From: a virus | Direction: 5' to 3' (one strand) | IMG/VR virus record: IMGVR_UViG_3300021185_003111 | Coordinates: 1-21,790 of that record | DNA: 21,790 nucleotides | Shown here: in pieces, positions 108 through 21,790 of the stretch | Layout of the letters: the number at the start of each line of letters is the position of its first letter | How positions within the stretch are numbered: the first letter of the stretch is position 1 | Position numbers and translations under genes: made by a program | Notes under the pieces: model-generated | What the model was told of the DNA's origin: nothing | Database searches by the model: none | The model's input: the letters and a program-made list of their open reading frames with translations, nothing else

Positions 108-482
108 ATGTTATTAAAAGAAATAGAGAATCAGTATCCATATATTAGTGTTGTCGCTTACGGCGGCAACGAATACGTGGGCATCATATCAAATCAAGAT
201 GCATTTGTAACAAGTATGTTTATATACACCTCATTAAAAACTATTGATGAAAAGGAATTATTATTAGACCTTGGAGATATTTGGTGGTGGGAATCAAACA
301 GAATGATACCAATTAATATTTTCCTTAAAAGAGAAATGGAAAGATTTAATTATAGTTTGCTTACAATGAATAGTAAAAACGTTAAAGTAGTAATTGGTCC
401 GTGTGTTAATATCAACAACTTGTCAATCAAACGTGTTAAACGCAAAAGTGTTCAACTTATAAAACGATCTGCTAGTACGTAA
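108..482 (+). CDS. Conserved small phage protein, function unknown (124 aa)
   Basis: One of only two plus-strand genes in the window. The protein has a tryptophan cluster (DIWWWESNR, residues about 57-65) followed by IPINIFLK, and a basic end rich in KRVKRK. From memory, proteins of this pattern recur in marine T4-like phages, but I know no function. There is no clear Shine-Dalgarno upstream of the ATG. The sequence before it carries TATAAG at 91-96 and a distant CTAAATA at 50-56, either of which might serve as a promoter. Its stop overlaps the end of the converging DnaE-like gene by 11 bases. The coding nature is supported by length and composition rather than by any motif. Confidence 0.7.
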   Translation: MLLKEIENQYPYISVVAYGGNEYVGIISNQDAFVTSMFIYTSLKTIDEKELLLDLGDIWWWESNRMIPINIFLKREMERFNYSLLTMNSKNVKVVIGPCVNINNLSIKRVKRKSVQLIKRSAST

Positions 483-1032
483 GACTTTCACAGATTAAAT
501 TTACATGTACAACACAAGATAATGCATATGCTACAGCATGTGCTTTCTTAAAATAGTAACTGCCGTCTTCAGGCTTCTTCCAAACTTCTTTGAATATCGT
601 TTGCCATGTTTCGTTGGCAAGATGCCTCTTGGCAGGCCGAATTATCGCTAGTGTCGCTGCTAACTGTTCTACCGAAGTAGGTTTCAATTGCTGCAATAGT
701 TCGCTGTGCCCGTTTAGATGAAAGACTTGATCTGAAAAGTCTTTGTGTTCCAATAGTTGCCATAACGGTTCCTTCTCCATTAGTGTGTTTAAGTGTGCTT
801 CGTTCTTAACGTCTTTGTATATGCTTACGTTAAGAAAGTCTAGTTTAAAGTATCCACGTTCTTCTGCGGTCTTGTGTTCAATAGTAGATAGATTGTCTAT
901 AGGATTATGAGGACACTCTGTAACATATACACCAGTGTTGTGTTTTTTACCTGTATCTAATTTTGCCACACGATGTTCTATCTTATCTAGTATAAGATTA
1001 CGATCGGCAAAGTCAATATCAATATCTGGCAT
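472..1032 (-). CDS. Miniature DnaE-like (DNA polymerase III alpha) protein
   Basis: The protein starts MPDIDIDF, matching the DnaE palm motif PDFDVDF that supplies two catalytic aspartates (here D3 and D5). KKHNTGVYV (29-37) resembles the DnaE GKHAGGVVI segment. FKLDFL (62-67) matches the KFDFLGL motif carrying the third catalytic Asp (here D65). VFHLNGHSELLQQLKP (103-118) and the following IIRP resemble VFQLES...L..L.P...RPGP. FKKAHAVAYAL (161-171) matches FNKSHSAAYAL. The order is that of bacterial DnaE, but the whole protein is only 186 residues against over 1,100, and it lacks PHP, tau-binding, beta-binding and OB domains. The region between the second and third Asp motifs is cut from about 150 to about 60 residues. 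It is the last gene of the minus-strand run. Whether it polymerises is unknown; it may be a relic or a repurposed DNA-binding fold. Confidence 0.75.
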   Translation of the reverse strand: MPDIDIDFADRNLILDKIEHRVAKLDTGKKHNTGVYVTECPHNPIDNLSTIEHKTAEERGYFKLDFLNVSIYKDVKNEAHLNTLMEKEPLWQLLEHKDFSDQVFHLNGHSELLQQLKPTSVEQLAATLAIIRPAKRHLANETWQTIFKEVWKKPEDGSYYFKKAHAVAYALSCVVHVNLICESLTY

Positions 1033-2847: not shown

Positions 2848-3482
2848 TTTTCCTCCATTAAATTAGGTAAACAAATTTTCCAGTCGTGGTCTTTTTTAAA
2901 GACTTCGATATCATTAAAATATACAGTATCGTCTTTTAAATAAATCTCAATATCTTCTTGGGTTACTAAATTTTTATAGCTTTGTTGTCTATCATACGGA
3001 CGTACTTGTGTAGTAATATTTTCGCCCCATAATGTTTCTATTACTATATTATCACTAAGAAATCGAATACTGTCGTCAGTACGCCCAAATTTTCTAAATT
3101 TAAAATATATTATTTCTTGGTTAGGCAAATAAGGAATGAATAAAGAACGTTTTAATCCAGGTTGTATTTCAATTCGTTGTCCATCGTCGTGTATGGTAAT
3201 TGGATCTCTAATGAATCTATCTTTTATTAAAATAAAATATACATCAAGAAGTGAATTATAATTATCTATTGGGTTATGTATAAAGTCTCGATTTGTATAT
3301 GATTGTTTACTTTTATTTTTAAAATATCTTATAACTAATTGATTCCATCGATTGTATTGTGGCGATGCGTGTTTAACAATATTTTTATAGAACTCAAAAG
3401 AAGATGTTTTGTGTACAACAAAATTTAAATCTCTTTTTGCGTATTCTAAATCGTCGATTGTTTTTAAAGAATACACAGTCAT
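2844..3482 (-). CDS. Unknown protein, distantly similar to the gene at 1035-1739 (212 aa)
   Basis: No recognised family. The product shares with the 234-residue protein at 1035-1739 a core containing a SLL..Y.I helix, a DPI(T/S)I motif, a PG..R segment and a P(N/D)(Q/K)EI motif, and a C-terminal region ending in Trp-X-Ile-(Cys/Arg)-(Leu/Val)-Pro. It is rich in Lys, Arg, Asn and Tyr, with no membrane segment. The ATG shares one base with the stop of the zinc-finger gene, and its stop overlaps the kinase start by four bases, so translation is probably coupled on both sides. Its AT-rich composition resembles its homologue. Confidence 0.7.
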   Translation of the reverse strand: MTVYSLKTIDDLEYAKRDLNFVVHKTSSFEFYKNIVKHASPQYNRWNQLVIRYFKNKSKQSYTNRDFIHNPIDNYNSLLDVYFILIKDRFIRDPITIHDDGQRIEIQPGLKRSLFIPYLPNQEIIYFKFRKFGRTDDSIRFLSDNIVIETLWGENITTQVRPYDRQQSYKNLVTQEDIEIYLKDDTVYFNDIEVFKKDHDWKICLPNLMEEK

Positions 3483-4177
3483 TAGAGCATCGCCTTTTTT
3501 GCAATATTTTTAATAAGTTCAATATCCTTTGGTTGTCTTTTAAATCGCATTGCCCAGTGACTTGGATCTAAAACATTGCTTAACATTCCTAACTGTTCCC
3601 CAGATAAACTACTTAATGCTTGTTTGCCTGAACTACAATTTAGTACTAGCCACGGAGATACTTTACCGTCTTTGATATCCCATGTGAGTCTGTTTTCATT
3701 TACATATCTAAAGTAATCGTTGAATCGACTATTTTTCTCTTCAGCCCATTTTGTCATTGTTGCAATACTACGTTCAAGTGCAGTTTCAACGCCTTCTTTA
3801 CGTATAAGCTCTACAGCATATGCTTCGTACATTTCTTCTCGGCACCAATGGTCGAGTTTTACATTACTAGTAACAACATAATCGATATACTTGTCAGGAT
3901 AAAGAGGACGCACATTAGATACAAAACTTCCAAACTTAACAAAGGCATTATAAAAACTACTCTTTGAAAACTCTTCATACGTTTTTTCTTTTTTGTGTCC
4001 TGCACTTAAAGTATAGAATCGTTGGAATGCATAAAAGCCCAACGTAACACGTTTTTCATCTTTTTGTAGCCAGCGTCTTTTGGGCTCACACATATGCGCT
4101 AAGAGTGTGCTTTCTTTAACATAACTCTTATTACAATATTCGCATGTGTGTTTAGATGTCAACTTTGTCGTAACCAT
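3482..4177 (-). CDS. Zinc-finger phage protein downstream of gp62 (231 aa)
   Basis: I place the start at the ATG at 4177. The frame is open further upstream, but only to a TTG deep inside gp62. From 4177 the protein opens with a zinc-finger-like motif: C12-X2-C15-X12-H28-X1-C30, in CEYCNKSYVKES...AHMC, followed by a basic KRRWLQK stretch. The last spacing is shorter than in a classical C2H2 finger. The rest has motifs such as FVKFG and LDHWCREE. From memory, the arrangement of an N-terminal finger plus this body recurs in T4-like marine phages next to DNA replication genes. It overlaps the gp62 end by 26 bases. A nucleic-acid-binding role in replication or expression is an inference. Confidence 0.7.
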   Translation of the reverse strand: MVTTKLTSKHTCEYCNKSYVKESTLLAHMCEPKRRWLQKDEKRVTLGFYAFQRFYTLSAGHKKEKTYEEFSKSSFYNAFVKFGSFVSNVRPLYPDKYIDYVVTSNVKLDHWCREEMYEAYAVELIRKEGVETALERSIATMTKWAEEKNSRFNDYFRYVNENRLTWDIKDGKVSPWLVLNCSSGKQALSSLSGEQLGMLSNVLDPSHWAMRFKRQPKDIELIKNIAKKAML

Positions 4178-4622
4178 GCTCTTTGGCAAACTGCTTGATT
4201 TCTTTTTTTGTAGATATTCTAGCAAGTAATTCAACCTCGTCTAATTTCATTTCAGGATATATTTGTGATAGCAATTTTGCTGCTTTACTGCTTTCATCTT
4301 TTTTCTTTTTAAGACCAATCCACGGATGAAACATTTTCTTTCCAGTTTTGCCAGCAACACACAATAACTGCCATTGTAGTTTGATGTGATTTGTTCCACC
4401 AATATCATTCCAGTTTTTATTGTAGTATTCATTTACTTTGAATACTGCTAATGCTTGGTCTTCGAACTTGCCTTTAACACTACTGATGTAACGATTGAGA
4501 TTCCATAAGTCACCTTTGATATCTTTCTTACCAACATCACTTGCTGCATCATACAGCTCTTTGATGCCCATATCAATACTTGGAATAAGTTCTTTAAATA
4601 AGTCTAGTTCTTTATTTGGCAT
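4152..4622 (-). CDS. 62: Sliding-clamp loader small subunit, gp62-like (156 aa)
   Basis: The N-terminus DLFKELIPSI and the body (NRYISSVKG, VNEYYNKNW, LQWQLLC, HPWIG) follow the pattern I know for gp62 of T4-like marine phages. T4 gp62 is a highly divergent, ATPase-less partner of gp44 that helps load the gp45 clamp onto primer-template. The length (156 aa) is a little below the T4 protein (187 aa). No Walker motif is present, as expected. The start overlaps kdsB by 11 bases, with AGGA inside the kdsB end. In T4, gene 62 directly follows and overlaps gene 44, which is not in this window. The call rests on remembered pattern rather than a catalytic motif, so a profile search would settle it. 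Confidence 0.7.
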   Translation of the reverse strand: MPNKELDLFKELIPSIDMGIKELYDAASDVGKKDIKGDLWNLNRYISSVKGKFEDQALAVFKVNEYYNKNWNDIGGTNHIKLQWQLLCVAGKTGKKMFHPWIGLKKKKDESSKAAKLLSQIYPEMKLDEVELLARISTKKEIKQFAKEHGYDKVDI

Positions 4623-5286
4623 GCCATTCCTCTACATCACTTGGCGAATTAATCTCTACTCCATTGTATTGTACACTCAAACAACCAATTTGCCAACCAC
4701 TTTTTAGCCAGCGTAGTTGTTCTAATTTTTCAACTTCTTCTTCACGTTCTACAGGCAAAGTAGTATACATTTCTAACGCATTACGCTTATATCCGTATAC
4801 TCCTAAGTGCCAGTCACCGTAGCCGGTCATACCTCTTCCAAACCATAGGGCTTGGTCGCCAGCACGTACCATCTTAACTGAGTTAGGGTCGTTCTGTTTG
4901 TCTTCTTGCATTTGAGTAAACACTGTGGTAACAGGATAGTGTTGTAAGTGCCATTGTGCCTTTTCAATCATCTCTAGTGTTACATCAGGCATATCACCTT
5001 GTACGTTTATAAAGTTTTTGTATTGATCTAATATATCAAACTTAGCAACAGCACCTGCACATCTTTCAGTTCCGTTTTCGTAATCGCGGTGATCTAATAG
5101 GCAATTTGCACCTATTACATTGTATATGTTTTGGTCATCAGTAAGCACATATGTTGGTATCTTAGACGCTGTACAAGCGTCATACACACGCTTTATCATA
5201 GGAACACCATCTAACAGTGCCAAAGGTTTTCCAGGGAAGCGTGTGCTACCGTACCTAGCGGGAATAAGAATAACTGATGATGTCAC
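4612..5286 (-). CDS. kdsB: CMP-Kdo synthetase (3-deoxy-manno-octulosonate cytidylyltransferase)
   Basis: The enzyme couples Kdo to CTP, giving CMP-Kdo and pyrophosphate in the cytoplasm. Family signatures are PARYGSTRFPGKPL (9-22), the CTP-binding loop; ENGTER (70-75); NVQGD (94-98), whose Asp binds magnesium; HLGVYGYKR; and LEQLRWL near the C-terminus. At 224 residues it is slightly shorter than E. coli KdsB (248), but no core motif is missing. NeuA-type CMP-sialate synthetase is less likely because ENGTER and the LEQLRWL helix are Kdo-type. It starts with GTG at 5286 behind a near-perfect GAGGAGG site. It overlaps kdsA by 32 bases, and its stop overlaps gp62, so translation is probably coupled on both sides. 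Confidence 0.92.
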   Translation of the reverse strand: MTSSVILIPARYGSTRFPGKPLALLDGVPMIKRVYDACTASKIPTYVLTDDQNIYNVIGANCLLDHRDYENGTERCAGAVAKFDILDQYKNFINVQGDMPDVTLEMIEKAQWHLQHYPVTTVFTQMQEDKQNDPNSVKMVRAGDQALWFGRGMTGYGDWHLGVYGYKRNALEMYTTLPVEREEEVEKLEQLRWLKSGWQIGCLSVQYNGVEINSPSDVEEWHAK

Positions 5287-6028
5287 GTACTACCTCCTCG
5301 AAGTTATCTAAGCGTAGCATGTTAGGCCCATCGCTTGGTGCATTATCAGGATCAGGATGAACTTCTATGAAAAAATCTGTAATCCCAAGAGCACTGCTTG
5401 CCCTAGCCAAACCAGGAATATAATCCCTGTTGCCGCCACTAGATTCCCCATTGCCTCCGGGCTTTTGGCACGAGTGGCTAATATCGTACACAATTGGAGT
5501 GTTATAAGTGTCAAGCATATACTGCAAACCAGTAAAGTCAACGACAAGATTATTGTAACCAAAACTTGTTCCCCTTTCAGTTATCCAGACGTCTTTAGCG
5601 CCTTCTGTTTTACTTAGTACACCTTTCATATCCCAGGGTGCCATAAACTGTCCTTTTTTAATATTAACAATTTTATCTGTAGCACAAGCTGCTTGGATCA
5701 AGTCAGTCTGTCTACACAAGAATGCAGGTATCTGATAGACATCAACTGCATCTTTAAATTCTCTTTCAATACGTGCGACCTGTACATAGTCGTGTACATC
5801 AGTAAGTGTCTTTACACCTAGTTCTACTTTTAGTGCTAGGAAGTCAGTTAGTGTTGCTTCCATACCCATACCACGTTTGCCTTTAATACTCGAACGATTG
5901 GCTTTGTCGTAACTTGCTTTGAAGTAATACTCAATACCATACTTATCGCATACACGTTTACACTCGCGAGCAATCTCTAAACTTTGCGGCAATGATTCGT
6001 GTTGACACGGGCCTGCTATAATTCTCAT
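5255..6028 (-). CDS. kdsA: Kdo-8-phosphate synthase
   Basis: It condenses phosphoenolpyruvate with arabinose-5-phosphate to Kdo-8-phosphate. Signatures: AGPC (5-8), FKASYDKANRSS (36-47), TDVH (76-79), QIPAFLCRQTDL (99-110), NIKKGQFMAPWD (122-133), TERGTSFGYNNLVVDF (150-165), SHSCQKPGG (184-192) and HPDPDNAPSDGPN (224-236). The length, 257, is close to the usual 270-285. Cys8 in AGPC, with His185, Glu222 and Asp233, matches the metal-binding set of the metal-dependent class (Aquifex type) rather than the E. coli class, which has Asn. An AAGGAA site precedes the ATG. kdsD and kdsC equivalents are not in the window, so arabinose-5-phosphate and the phosphatase step would come from the host or elsewhere in the phage. 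Confidence 0.95.
   Translation of the reverse strand: MRIIAGPCQHESLPQSLEIARECKRVCDKYGIEYYFKASYDKANRSSIKGKRGMGMEATLTDFLALKVELGVKTLTDVHDYVQVARIEREFKDAVDVYQIPAFLCRQTDLIQAACATDKIVNIKKGQFMAPWDMKGVLSKTEGAKDVWITERGTSFGYNNLVVDFTGLQYMLDTYNTPIVYDISHSCQKPGGNGESSGGNRDYIPGLARASSALGITDFFIEVHPDPDNAPSDGPNMLRLDNFEEVVRDIISYSYSR
5293..5299 (-). promoter_or_regulatory. Strong ribosome binding site for the GTG start of kdsB
   Basis: GAGGAGG on the minus strand lies six bases before GTG at 5286, inside the last codons of kdsA. It is among the best Shine-Dalgarno matches in the window and decides the GTG start, since the first in-frame ATG lies after the PARYGS nucleotide-binding motif. Confidence 0.75.
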
Positions 6029-10176: not shown

Positions 10177-11640
10177 TTAATTCCAATCAACTTTTTCGAT
10201 AGTGAATGGGTACTGCGCCTCTTTGTAAAACTTTTTACGTTGGGTAAGGTGCCGCTTCGCAAACTTGCATGTAGATGTCAAGTCCCATATTTGCACGAAG
10301 TCTTTGTCCTTTGCCTTTCTTACACCTCTACCAATAGATTGAATTACTCTTACAAAGGACTTGCCAGGCTCCAAAAGAACCAAGTTAAAAATACGAGGAA
10401 TGTTAAGACCCACGGCAGCAACTCCATAGGTCGCGATAATAACCTCATTAGTTCCTTCACGGATTGTATCATATGTTTCTTTCCTGTCTTTGTTTTTAAC
10501 AGCACCGCTTACAAATGTGCTGCCTGGTATAAGTTCAGCAAGCATTTCGCCTGCGCTAATTCTATCTACTAGTATTAATGTATTGCCTGATTCTTTTACT
10601 GTGTTTAATAATTTGCCTATATATTCTATTCTTGCTGGATTGTTAACAAGATATTTTAATTCTTCTTGGTAACCGCTGTGTGCTACTGTGTCAATCAATT
10701 GTACTACATTAACATGACATTCTGACAGTACACCTTTGTCTTGTAATTCTTTTGCCGAGATGTTGCCAATTACAGGACCAAGACTAGCATGAATACTTTC
10801 AAACTCAAACTTTTCTTTAGGTACTGTACCAGTTAGTCCCCAACGTATAGGTGCATTACGTAGGTTGCGAGTGAGCAGGTTTTTAAGAACTTCTGCTTTG
10901 GCTTGGTGTACTTCGTCGACAATAATAGTGCTTACACCTTCTAGAAACTCTGCAAGTGATAACACTGCTGAGCCGTCTTTTTGCTTCTTGTCTAGAATAT
11001 TTAAACTCTGCCAAGTGCAAATAGTGTGAGTCTTACCTAACATCTTCCTGTCTCCGAAGTACACCCCTACATCGAGACCGCAGTTAATATAGTCCTCTTC
11101 TGTTTGTTCTACTAACGACTTGTTAGGAACAATCACAAGACTTCTACCATACGGCTCAGTTATGTGTGACAGCGTTGCTGTGGTAATAGTTTTACCTGCG
11201 CCAGTAGCAATCTGTTGCAAGCTCTGTGGGTTATTCAAAAAGTTATTAATTGCTTCTACTTGATAGTCACGTAGAATAATATCTTCGCCTTCTGCTGGAT
11301 GACCTTCTGGCCATACTACGCCTTGATCCTTCCAGTAGTTTTCTGTTACTGGTGTAAAGTCTAATTGTATAGGATGTCTATTGTCTTGAATATCAACTAT
11401 TTCAACATTATTTTTTTGTAGCACTTGACTAACAGTGTCAAGATGATTAACATAGCCAGTACCGCCAATACCAAAAAAAGCAACTTTTCCATCCCAGCGA
11501 CCAAGTTTATACTGTGGCATATATCGTGCGTAAGGCACTTCAAACTTGAGAGCATTCGATAACTTTCTCCGTACATCAACGTCTAGTCCTTCTAGTTTAA
11601 TGTTTACTTCGTCTTCAATTATCAATCTACACGTAGCCAT
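10177..11640 (-). CDS. uvsW: UvsW-like SF2 DNA helicase
   Basis: In T4, UvsW unwinds branched DNA and R-loops and anneals strands, and helps switch replication from origin- to recombination-dependent initiation. Motif I is ATGAGKTIT (145-153), motif II DEVHQ (242-246), motif III GLTGT (268-272), and motif VI QSIGRGVRKAKD (434-445). The N-terminal 120 residues (KLGRWDGKVAFF and around) resemble the substrate-binding N-domain of UvsW. Length 487 is close to T4 UvsW (503). The ATG follows a GGAG site and overlaps the upstream 392-residue gene by 14 bases. Confidence 0.95.
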   Translation of the reverse strand: MATCRLIIEDEVNIKLEGLDVDVRRKLSNALKFEVPYARYMPQYKLGRWDGKVAFFGIGGTGYVNHLDTVSQVLQKNNVEIVDIQDNRHPIQLDFTPVTENYWKDQGVVWPEGHPAEGEDIILRDYQVEAINNFLNNPQSLQQIATGAGKTITTATLSHITEPYGRSLVIVPNKSLVEQTEEDYINCGLDVGVYFGDRKMLGKTHTICTWQSLNILDKKQKDGSAVLSLAEFLEGVSTIIVDEVHQAKAEVLKNLLTRNLRNAPIRWGLTGTVPKEKFEFESIHASLGPVIGNISAKELQDKGVLSECHVNVVQLIDTVAHSGYQEELKYLVNNPARIEYIGKLLNTVKESGNTLILVDRISAGEMLAELIPGSTFVSGAVKNKDRKETYDTIREGTNEVIIATYGVAAVGLNIPRIFNLVLLEPGKSFVRVIQSIGRGVRKAKDKDFVQIWDLTSTCKFAKRHLTQRKKFYKEAQYPFTIEKVDWN

Positions 11641-19515: not shown

Positions 19516-19739
19516 TACTCATCCCACTCTTGTTCGTCTTCGTCGTCTTCATCTTCTAAGTAGTATTGAATTGCAGCATCTAAAAGTTTATCATTGCCAA
19601 GTGAAGATTTTAATGTCAAGTCGTCAACACCATAATCAACTAGTAAATCAACAAATTTTTCAGCTACAAGTTCTGGCTGTTTCTTATCTAGATAGTTTTT
19701 AAATAAGTTCCAGATGTCAGCAATTTGGTCTTCATCCAT
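19515..19739 (-). CDS. Small acidic protein linked to uvsX (74 aa)
   Basis: The protein has a helical N-terminal part (DQIADIWNLFKNYLDKK) and a strongly acidic end: the last 15 residues are nearly all Asp or Glu (EDEDDEDEQEWDE). Acidic tails like this often mediate contact with ssDNA-binding or replication proteins. From memory, a relative lies between uvsX and the next conserved gene in marine T4-like phages. It overlaps uvsX's end by eight bases. No enzymatic motif is present. Confidence 0.72.
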   Translation of the reverse strand: MDEDQIADIWNLFKNYLDKKQPELVAEKFVDLLVDYGVDDLTLKSSLGNDKLLDAAIQYYLEDEDDEDEQEWDE

Positions 19740-20871
19740 TTTCAGCAGTTTCCTCGATTAAGTTATCATCGGTATTTACCAATTCGGCTTCTAATTCAGC
19801 TAGTTCTGCTTCTCTTGCCAACCGTTCAGCTTCTGCTTCATCGGCTGCAACTTGTGCTTCTTTAGCTGGCAAATCTGCCATAACCTTATCGAGTAATTCG
19901 CCTGTCCAACGCTTGCGGAATTCTAGAATAGGTTCGCCGTTACTCATAACATACTCGTAACGATTACCTTTCTTTTCTAGTAGTCCTTTTGCATCCATCA
20001 AGTCAAACATACCTGAATATGGATCCATACCTGTTTCATATGGAATCTCAACTTGTACACTTTCAAACGGTTTGTTGTAACGTGTTTTCATTACTTTACA
20101 CGCTGCTCTAATACCATGTACTTGTGATGTTTTGTTGCCGTCTGCATCCACTTTAAGTTTAAGTTTCTTCATAGCAACAACCATACTACTTGCATACACA
20201 AAACCCGAACCACCTGAGATCTTGTCATCTGGATCAAACATATCTTGCGATGCATACGTGTGGTTAGTTACACACATGCCTACATTGTAACTACCAAACA
20301 TGTTAACACAGTTAGTTACAAGTGCTTTAAGTGCTTTTGCCTTACGACCAAAGTCGCCCTTCATATCACCTTTTTGGAACTGGTCCATTTCAGTAGGCGA
20401 CATAAGCATACCAAGTGAGTCAACTACAAACAATACTTTTGGACGATCTTCTTCGTTCATTGCTTTGTAGTCTTCCATAAATGTACTAACTGTTTTAGCA
20501 ACATCATCAATCATTGCCATATTAAGTTTAAGTAATTTACTTTCGTCTGTGTCTACCTTTAGTGCTTGTAGCCAAGTTTCGTCAAGTGCATTTTCACTGT
20601 CAATAAGGACAACAAAGATACCTTGGTCTTGTGCGTATTTTACAATATTACCTGACACAATATAAGATTTGCCTGCACCTGATTCGCCTGCAAATACCGA
20701 CACCTTGCCTAGCGGAATACCTTTTTGAAAGTCACCACTTAGCAAATAGTTAAGTGCAAAGTTACCTGTACTAATCCAATCAGTTGGATCGTTGAAACCT
20801 GCACTCATACCCGTAATAGATTTTGTCAACGAATTACGGAATTTCGTTGGATCGAATGTTTTACTGACCAT
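19732..20871 (-). CDS. uvsX: UvsX, RecA-like recombinase
   Basis: T4-type RecA homologue that polymerises on ssDNA and drives strand exchange. Walker A is GESGAGKS (62-69), a conserved Glu-containing DSENALDETW segment follows (91-100), and Walker B is VLFVVDSLG (146-154). The KISGGSGFVYASS region (217-229) is the L2-like loop of the family. The C-terminus (about 345-379) is a charged Ala/Glu-rich helix ending acidic, as in other phage UvsX. Length 379 is near the T4 protein (391). An AGGAG site at 20877-20881 lies six bases before the ATG. Confidence 0.95.
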   Translation of the reverse strand: MVSKTFDPTKFRNSLTKSITGMSAGFNDPTDWISTGNFALNYLLSGDFQKGIPLGKVSVFAGESGAGKSYIVSGNIVKYAQDQGIFVVLIDSENALDETWLQALKVDTDESKLLKLNMAMIDDVAKTVSTFMEDYKAMNEEDRPKVLFVVDSLGMLMSPTEMDQFQKGDMKGDFGRKAKALKALVTNCVNMFGSYNVGMCVTNHTYASQDMFDPDDKISGGSGFVYASSMVVAMKKLKLKVDADGNKTSQVHGIRAACKVMKTRYNKPFESVQVEIPYETGMDPYSGMFDLMDAKGLLEKKGNRYEYVMSNGEPILEFRKRWTGELLDKVMADLPAKEAQVAADEAEAERLAREAELAELEAELVNTDDNLIEETAENG

Positions 20872-20924: not shown

Positions 20925-21790
20925 TCAACCTTGACGTGAACGAATCATTGCAAGGATATCTTGTGCTCCACCTTCAGCTGGCGCTGGTGCTGCTTCTGCT
21001 GCAACTTCTTCATTAGACTTAAACGGAATATCATCATTACGTGTGTCTACTGCTGGAGCAGGAGCTGGAGCACTTTGACTAACAGCCGTTGCTTGTGGTG
21101 ATGCTGGCTTTGACGGATCGCCTGTACGTGCTTGCATGCCTGCTGGGCGGAAATATTGACTCCAACGATCTGGATCGTAGGCTTCGCCATCTACACTTGC
21201 TTCAAACATTTCTGCAAGAACTTTAACAGCCACTTCGTCTGGCTTTTTAGGAAGGAAGTCGTTGAGATTAAACAGTCCGTGTGTATTAACTGCATTCATC
21301 TCACTGTCACTTAGTGGACGCTCTCTACGTGCCCAATTACTTGCGCCGTAATCTGCATATCCACCTTTGGAACCTTTTGCAAGACGGAAGTCTACACCAG
21401 CAGTATAATCTGTTGGTAATTCTTCCATATCTGGATCCATAAGAGCTGCCTTAATTAACTGAAAGATTTGTGGACCAATAATAAAACGTCTAACAGGATT
21501 TTCTGGTGTAGAGTCCTCTGCTAGTGGATTATCTGTAACAAATCCTTGGAAGATATATGAACGTTTCTTCCAATATTTACGACCCATATCTTCTAATGCT
21601 GGATCTTTAAACCAACCACGTACTTCCTGTAGAATGCCACAGGATTCGCCGTACATTTCCATGCATGGAACTTGTACTTGTACTGGGCGTGAACTTGTGT
21701 CGCCCTTAATACCGCTAAATGGAAGTTTAATCATCAAACGTTCTTTCCAGAAGAAAGTGTTTGAATCGTCCCCATCAGGTAAGAAGCGAA
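20925..21790 (-). CDS. 32: Single-stranded-DNA-binding protein gp32, 5' end outside the window
   Basis: The frame is open to the right edge (residues RFLPDGDDSNTFFWKERL just inside it), so the start is outside; an internal Met at 21737 is not the start. gp32 covers ssDNA in T4-like replication and interacts with UvsX. Visible features are FFWKERLMIKLPFSGIKG, MGRKYWKKRSYIFQGFV, PVRRFIIGPQIFQLI, and a long Ala/Pro-rich linker ending in GAQDILAMIRSRQ. Where T4 gp32 has CPVC of its zinc site, this reads CGIL, so at least one Cys ligand is missing. The terminal segment is far less acidic than in T4. It precedes uvsX, separated by the hairpin. Confidence 0.9.
   Translation of the reverse strand, partial: RFLPDGDDSNTFFWKERLMIKLPFSGIKGDTSSRPVQVQVPCMEMYGESCGILQEVRGWFKDPALEDMGRKYWKKRSYIFQGFVTDNPLAEDSTPENPVRRFIIGPQIFQLIKAALMDPDMEELPTDYTAGVDFRLAKGSKGGYADYGASNWARRERPLSDSEMNAVNTHGLFNLNDFLPKKPDEVAVKVLAEMFEASVDGEAYDPDRWSQYFRPAGMQARTGDPSKPASPQATAVSQSAPAPAPAVDTRNDDIPFKSNEEVAAEAAPAPAEGGAQDILAMIRSRQG

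Follow-up and report, generated by a model that had tools for sequence, protein, structure and literature searches.

A short DnaE-like protein of large phages as one half of a probable split, minimal DNA polymerase III alpha

Genes and motifs of the locus

The window, as the whole stretch of DNA analysed here is called, is a 21.8 kb viral fragment in which genes for a single-strand DNA binding protein (SSB), a UvsX-like recombinase and a UvsW-type helicase lie on the same strand as a short gene, here named B. The product of B is related to DnaE, the alpha subunit of DNA polymerase III (Pol III). B and its motifs are as follows.

472 to 1032, minus strand: B, 186 residues, assigned as the C-terminal half of a split minimal Pol III alpha, with the catalytic Asp triad and reduced fingers
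1009 to 1029, minus strand: PDIDIDF motif at the extreme N-terminus of B, residues 2-8, with catalytic D3 and D5
931 to 942, minus strand: HNTG motif of B, residues 31-34, with H31 and G34 unchanged in all 163 distinct homologues
832 to 849, minus strand: FKLDFL motif of B, residues 62-67, with K63 and the third catalytic Asp, D65
634 to 642, minus strand: IRP motif of B, residues 131-133, corresponding to RP of the DnaE fingers
526 to 549, minus strand: KKAHAVAY motif of B, residues 162-169, corresponding to NKSHAAGY of the DnaE fingers

The following neighbours of B in the window were considered.

108 to 482, plus strand: convergent neighbour of phrog_11637, the 3' end of which overlaps B by 11 bases
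3482 to 4234, minus strand: C2H2-like protein of phrog_11058, in the same block as B; relatives have phrog_11058 close before B
10177 to 11640, minus strand: DNA helicase (phrog_16 'DNA helicase', E 8.4e-79), UvsW-type by place
19732 to 20871, minus strand: UvsX-like recombinase (phrog_97, E 4.8e-68)
20925 to 21737, minus strand: gp32-like SSB (phrog_1192, E 1e-42)

The translation, MPDIDIDF...FKLDFL...VFHL...KKAHAVAYAL, was read directly from the ORF and bore out the initial annotation, which had placed D3, D5 and D65 in the order of the DnaE palm within a protein of 186 residues. The further DnaE-like motifs named there (VFHL, AHAVAYAL and one of the HxxG type, the HNTG above) were likewise found.

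The gene order around B recurs in relatives. In phages RaK2, PBECO4 and vB_Pa-PAC2, the SSB, recombinase and UvsW-type helicase genes are followed by a few small genes, B, a convergent gene, primase and the replicative helicase; full synteny refers to these three loci, which were taken with 10 kb flanks, and shorter loci show parts of it. UvsW lies at the place matching the window helicase in two of the relatives' loci. A protein of phrog_11058 is also encoded in L096, a locus from an uncultured contig, and a C2H2-type protein, likened by place and type, is encoded directly before B in vB_Pa-PAC2. As matched by place and orientation, a small convergent CDS directly follows B in 12 of 13 annotated loci; in XacN1, one ORF lies between the two, and a further locus carries no annotation. 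The convergent gene at 108-482 is a candidate functional partner of B, or a candidate terminator arrangement.

Two further features of these loci were noted. At 4612-6028 on the minus strand, the window includes adjacent genes for a KdsB-like cytidylyltransferase and a KdsA-like protein of the DAHP-synthase family (PF02348 and PF00793), together with genes for UDP-sugar dehydrogenase and epimerase and a weak match to a glycosyltransferase, all inside the replication block. A similar pair was seen by eye at L558:3494-4994, and the pair may be assignable to KDO. A peptide deformylase gene precedes B in some relatives, lying just before it at L090:9279-9779 (plus strand, phrog_2890) and, by eye, at L558:7231-7764 (plus strand); none is found there in the window.

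Identity and distribution of B

In PHROG profile searches, B was matched by phrog_11778, annotated 'DNA polymerase' (E 3.5e-58, residues 3-183), and by phrog_405, a DnaE family of 1190 positions (E 8.2e-9). Single-sequence searches of Pfam, NCBIfam and the PDB returned weak DnaE matches, and profiles were needed. The Pfam model of the DnaE fingers (PF17657) scored 16.3 bits, under its cut-off of 22 bits, with the region aligned yet reduced in the predicted model of B. The NCBIfam DnaE models were far under their cut-offs, and the best PDB match by phmmer (E 0.4) paired MPDIDIDF with the MPDIDIDF of Mycobacterium tuberculosis DnaE. The link of B to DnaE is weak in general libraries and strong by phage profile and fold.

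The profile of B matched M. tuberculosis DnaE weakly (E 0.009), with PDIDIDF, KMDFL through RP, and KSHAAGY aligned. These alignments agree with the shortened spacing between active-site motifs that the initial annotation had pointed out, D5 and D65 being 60 residues apart in B and 164 in M. tuberculosis DnaE. The fingers are also shortened, by about 85 residues, where residues 134-144 of the protein stand against positions 678-773 of phrog_405. Some relatives have up to about 20 residues ahead of PDIDIDF, and B of the window starts with MPDIDIDF. Across the 186 residues, Pfam gives just the sub-threshold fingers match, and the PHP, clamp-binding and C-terminal domains are missing. The GS motif of the palm is absent from B of the window and is found in relatives in a different protein, described below.

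This domain content bears on an earlier suggestion that B is a decoy for the host clamp or the template. The beta-binding and C-terminal domains are the DnaE regions that bind the clamp, and both are absent from B; a decoy would also have no reason to keep the catalytic triad. The suggestion gained no support and is considered extremely improbable.

B was found by tblastn in 63 phage records, each match covering at least 80% of the query, and the profile matches and this distribution put B well beyond a chance likeness. Among the 60 of these records that were listed, 57 are 284-490 kb and three are 86-110 kb long. In the record of phage GAP32 (NC_019401.1, 213274-213924), B carries the note of a single predicted transmembrane segment, and 'putative membrane protein' is its label in several related records. 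Given the DnaE-like fold predicted for the window homologue, this label is doubtful.

Partner gene A and predicted structures

Full records of 14 phages with B were searched with phrog_405 and PF07733 and, in all 14, a second gene with the DnaE palm stretch that precedes PDIDIDF was found, with PF07733 over its cut-off. This gene is named A. Its open frame is 169-213 residues in 13 of the phages and its ORF is 177 residues in Atu_ph07. A carries a G-x-GRGS motif and has the consensus end GVGRGSSVASYxLYLIGxHxVDSIKYxLDxxEFLK, which matches DnaE as far as 'FLN'; the next motif in DnaE is PDIDIDF, the start of B. The profile of A aligns to residues 317-394 of E. coli DnaE. By sequence and structural alignment, A reaches residue 393/394 of the E. 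coli protein and B begins at 400/401, and in M. tuberculosis DnaE (5lew) structural alignment ends A at 413 and begins B at 419. In DnaE, five to seven residues therefore separate the end of A from the start of B.

A lies 14.7 to 224 kb from B on record coordinates, and was detected in 59 of the 60 listed B records. Among the phages with both genes is Sharanji, a coliphage with E. coli K-12 MG1655 as host. A itself was found in 60 records, all of them listed; one of these, OP752703, does not appear among the 60 listed B records and could be one of the three left unlisted. The single listed B record without A is PP728206, which is probably partial given its length of 109.5 kb. A set of 28 large IMG/VR records, chosen for size from the A or B searches and including possible fragments, had both genes in 13, B alone in nine and A alone in six, two weak A-profile matches in records with a compact DnaE (see below) being left out of the A count. 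Records with one gene alone are probably mostly fragments, and six of the seven records over 300 kb carry both. A family B polymerase is encoded in 14 of 14 phages and in 19 of the 28 IMG/VR records.

Some individual contigs depart from this pattern. One 359 kb IMG/VR record (G034, locus L400) encodes A and a family B polymerase, and B was not detected in it by two profiles; it may be a fragment, may encode a very divergent B or may have truly lost the gene. A was not seen in the 21.8 kb of the window, and in G001, a contig of 98.5 kb whose B is identical to that of the window, neither A nor a family B polymerase was detected by profile. B-bearing contigs were also found in MAGs assigned to Neomarinimicrobiota, Elusimicrobia, Natrialbaceae, Cloacimonadota and Pacearchaeota (L558-L562), two of the five MAGs also holding A; these contigs probably belong to phages and were misplaced in binning.

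No ORF fusing A and B was found in 254 loci and the window, nor after two further scans, and in 205 B loci and 189 A loci, each of at most about 20.5 kb, the two genes never shared an ORF or a locus. A long ORF in locus L335 was considered as a fusion and rejected, being A behind an upstream open stretch. A and B were not found in one locus, and their physical association is therefore inferred.

AlphaFold2 gave a model of B with a mean pLDDT of 94.6 and a pTM of 0.84 (115 aligned sequences), and one of A from IMG/VR locus L150 with a pLDDT of 90.3 and a pTM of 0.73 (109 aligned sequences). The top Foldseek match was DnaE for both (E 6e-4 for B and 1.6e-3 for A). The query TM-scores were about 0.4-0.56 (0.56 for B and 0.45 for A in the top row), and these modest E-values and scores are attributed to large gaps. 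In VIA-align, where the fold comparison covers the listed families, B aligned with 3e0d at Z 10.0 and rmsd 3.7 over 184 residues (chain 461-838) and with E. coli DnaE (2hnh) at Z 9.3 and rmsd 3.7 over 181 residues (401-781), and the first unrelated row had Z 3.7. A aligned with 5lew at Z 12.8 and rmsd 2.4 over 100 residues (305-413) and with residues 279-393 in the E. coli DnaE rows, the first unrelated row having Z 2.8; in the DnaE rows A was aligned from about residue 73-79 on, and the comparison concerns mainly its C-terminal part. The 181 aligned residues of B are spread over a stretch of 381 residues in E. coli DnaE, and sequence alignments place the gaps in the thumb region and the middle of the fingers. 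By AlphaFold2, Foldseek and VIA-align, the predicted fold of B is that of the DnaE palm with reduced fingers over its whole length, which is the outcome expected by the initial annotation. As models, A and B match adjoining, non-overlapping parts of solved DnaE.

These results change the view of B as a miniature DnaE. Its derivation from DnaE and the kept triad stand, whereas its completeness does not, as B is half an enzyme. A stand-alone mini-polymerase would be in keeping with the confident fold of B by itself and with its triad; against this, the front half of the palm and the GS motif are not in B and are supplied by A, a separate gene in every one of the 14 phages and in nearly all listed B records. 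Activity of B alone is thus judged very unlikely.

Conservation, relatives and proposed function

Among 163 distinct B homologues from IMG/VR, D3, D5 and D7 of DIDID, K63 and D65 are present in all, as are H31 and G34. R132 and P133 are found in 161 of them, and both K and H of KKAHAVAY in 161, the other two being gaps in each case. All 144 distinct A sequences from IMG/VR have G-x-GRGSS, R116 and E120. Each of three IMG/VR scans for relatives relied on a pair of motif patterns, at least one of which covers GRGSS or DIDID, and the invariance of these residues is thus partly built in. A further search for relatives drew on six patterns spread over the protein, and tblastn on none. In the set retrieved without patterns, the 14 phage proteins and that of the window all have the full triad (15 of 15), and the aspartates are not lost in these homologues, a point that the initial annotation had singled out for checking. 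The first A pattern caught 12 of the 14 phages and the remaining two were read directly, Atu_ph07 having GRGSC.

Counting pairs with dS between 0.1 and 1.5, B gives a median pairwise dN/dS of 0.14, with values from 0.01 to 0.56 over 947 pairs, and A one of 0.18, with values from 0.04 to 0.64 over 2366 pairs. Among pairs that include B of the window, the ten lowest have dN/dS of 0.08-0.13 at dS of 1.3-1.5, near saturation. The B family is under purifying selection, as had been proposed in place of decay. A chance match or a relic was rejected on the phrog_11778 match, the invariant active-site residues and the dN/dS values: although B is strongly shortened relative to DnaE, as a decaying relic would be, it is also intact and widespread, and there is hardly any likelihood left for decay.

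Conservation also bears on whether A and B might be a catalytically idle accessory or scaffold, derived from DnaE, in a family B replisome. Such a role would suit the family B polymerase found in all 14 phages and the loss of parts that a processive DnaE requires. An idle scaffold should, however, lose some of its active-site residues, and the Asp triad, the Lys and GRGS are kept in the 163 distinct B and 144 distinct A sequences, even if partly by the choice of patterns; this argues against the scaffold, which is regarded as quite improbable.

A third DnaE-type gene, named C, was seen soon after the gp41 gene in two B-bearing uncultured contigs (G007 and G008).

L096:16957-18612, plus strand: C, whole in the contig, 551 residues; PF07733 at E 1.2e-42, fingers at 5.5e-16 and no PHP match
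L090:16167-17408, plus strand: C, running off the contig

C of L096 was matched at E 1e-5 or better by 1222 phage records, three of them over at least 80% of its length. The best covered, LR756508 (484 kb), matches 95% of the length at 35.7% identity, and the other two have 26-28% identity. LR756508 encodes C and a family B polymerase, and neither A nor B was detected in it by profile; the other C-holding contigs searched are at most 101 kb. In IMG/VR, 308 stretches are related to C, and 80 loci were kept (L461-L540), of which 78 encode a gp41-like helicase and 22 also have B within the fetched flank. Conversely, C was found in six of 184 B loci. The 98.5 kb contig with the identical B encodes gp41 and gave no PF07733 match, and hence there is no C in that stretch. 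The possibility that C is a fused A and B was rejected, as C matches the A and B profiles weakly and occurs beside B. The A profile gave 17-34 bits in 14 of 15 C-bearing records and nothing in one, whereas true A genes score 181 bits or more; the 14 weak matches are the C gene itself, as judged by open frames of 550-601 residues. No description of C was found in the available passages of PMC7824862 or in a non-exhaustive search of open-licence PMC papers.

A split minimal Pol III alpha in group 2.2 jumbo phages has already been described by Iyer et al. 2021 (PMC7824862), and B of the window therefore adds a member. The available passages of that paper describe two small proteins encoded by distant genes, an N-terminal NTP-binding unit and a C-terminal unit binding Mg2+ and template, beside a family B polymerase. 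A and B fit this description, and the tie to phrog_11778 is made here. The same passages state that these phages have no other Pol III domains, whereas some B-bearing contigs here also encode the compact DnaE. Its authors propose that the split enzyme works with the family B polymerase in making one strand or in repair, and regard it as a model of ancestral forms. The T4-like gp32, UvsX and UvsW-type gene families beside B in the window are as expected for this group. In the parts available of other papers, a truncated Pol III alpha, identified as A by its length of 172 residues, is given for CBB (PMC5259590); Pol III alpha and epsilon subunits are listed for Atu_ph07 (PMC6102473); PF07733 is reported in 51.9% of one jumbo-phage cluster (PMC9123017); and a 'DNA polymerase III' ORF is listed for Callisto with nothing further (PMC11079468). 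The PaBG paper was set aside as a source on A and B, the part available dealing with different Pol III subunits. A search of open-licence PMC papers yielded no experimental work on A or B.

Taken together, A and B are likely to form a split, thumbless and PHP-less minimal C-family nucleotidyltransferase of jumbo phages, a helper to the family B replicase that probably acts in repair or in filling gaps. The two chains would join without a covalent bond. Going by the chemistry of the family, the GS motif of A would position the triphosphate of the incoming nucleotide and D3, D5 and D65 of B would hold two metal ions. With the triphosphate site on A and the metal site on B, neither chain is expected to be active alone, and an enzyme with no thumb, PHP, clamp-binding or C-terminal domain is expected to be slow and poorly processive and to make short stretches. 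The complex would work alongside the family B polymerase, near SSB, UvsX, UvsW, primase and the gp41 helicase, and this block around B suggests gap filling or end extension; most likely, the complex would fill gaps or extend 3' ends in recombination-dependent replication and repair.

The chemistry might instead be directed to something other than copying a template, with A and B as an active nucleotidyltransferase that, for example, tails ends or acts on RNA or protein. In DnaE, the thumb and the middle of the fingers hold the duplex DNA and the template, and it is these that are missing, while the metal-binding and GS motifs are kept. The location of B within a DNA replication and recombination block, in the window and in relatives, speaks against this, and the retained RP and KSHA finger motifs would fit contact with DNA or template. 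A transferase of this kind is considered unlikely, and gap filling or end extension on DNA is preferred.

The stronger proposal, that A and B in trans are an active C-family polymerase with no thumb and about 370 residues in all, beside the family B replicase, with the compact DnaE as a third polymerase in some relatives, is made tentatively and with somewhat less than even confidence. To our knowledge, this would be smaller than any known C-family polymerase, and we know of no split or thumbless Pol III that has been shown to be active. C-family polymerases are known in the form of very large single chains, and a conserved two-piece enzyme without thumb or PHP would, if real, show the minimum needed for the chemistry. 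This phage lineage would then use several polymerases, unrelated or reduced, at a single fork. With the split point precisely defined and the residues listed, two small proteins would be enough to put the question to a direct test. Such an enzyme would also bear on the idea, put forward in the available passages of PMC7824862, that minimal forms resemble ancestors of the bacterial replicase.

Bacterial DnaE (E. coli 2hnh, Taq 2hpi and 3e0d, M. tuberculosis 5lew) shares with B the palm fold, the PDxDxDF and KxD triad and the RP and KSHA motifs, but is one chain, whereas A and B are two, of about 180 and 186 residues. DnaE has more than 900 residues, with PHP, thumb, full fingers, clamp-binding and C-terminal domains. 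PolC, of the same palm superfamily, is larger and has exonuclease and other domains. A matched PolC of Geobacillus kaustophilus (3f2b) at Z 8.3 over 99 residues, and the entries 9qrn/9qpc, titled 'DNA polymerase' and taken for PolC by their residue numbers, gave Z 7.8 with B and Z 11.9 with A, the match of B to PolC being weaker than that to DnaE. The DnaE of Rhizobium phage RHEph10 (gp048) is likewise a phage C-family polymerase, but is encoded by a single 3.4 kb gene with PHP annotated.
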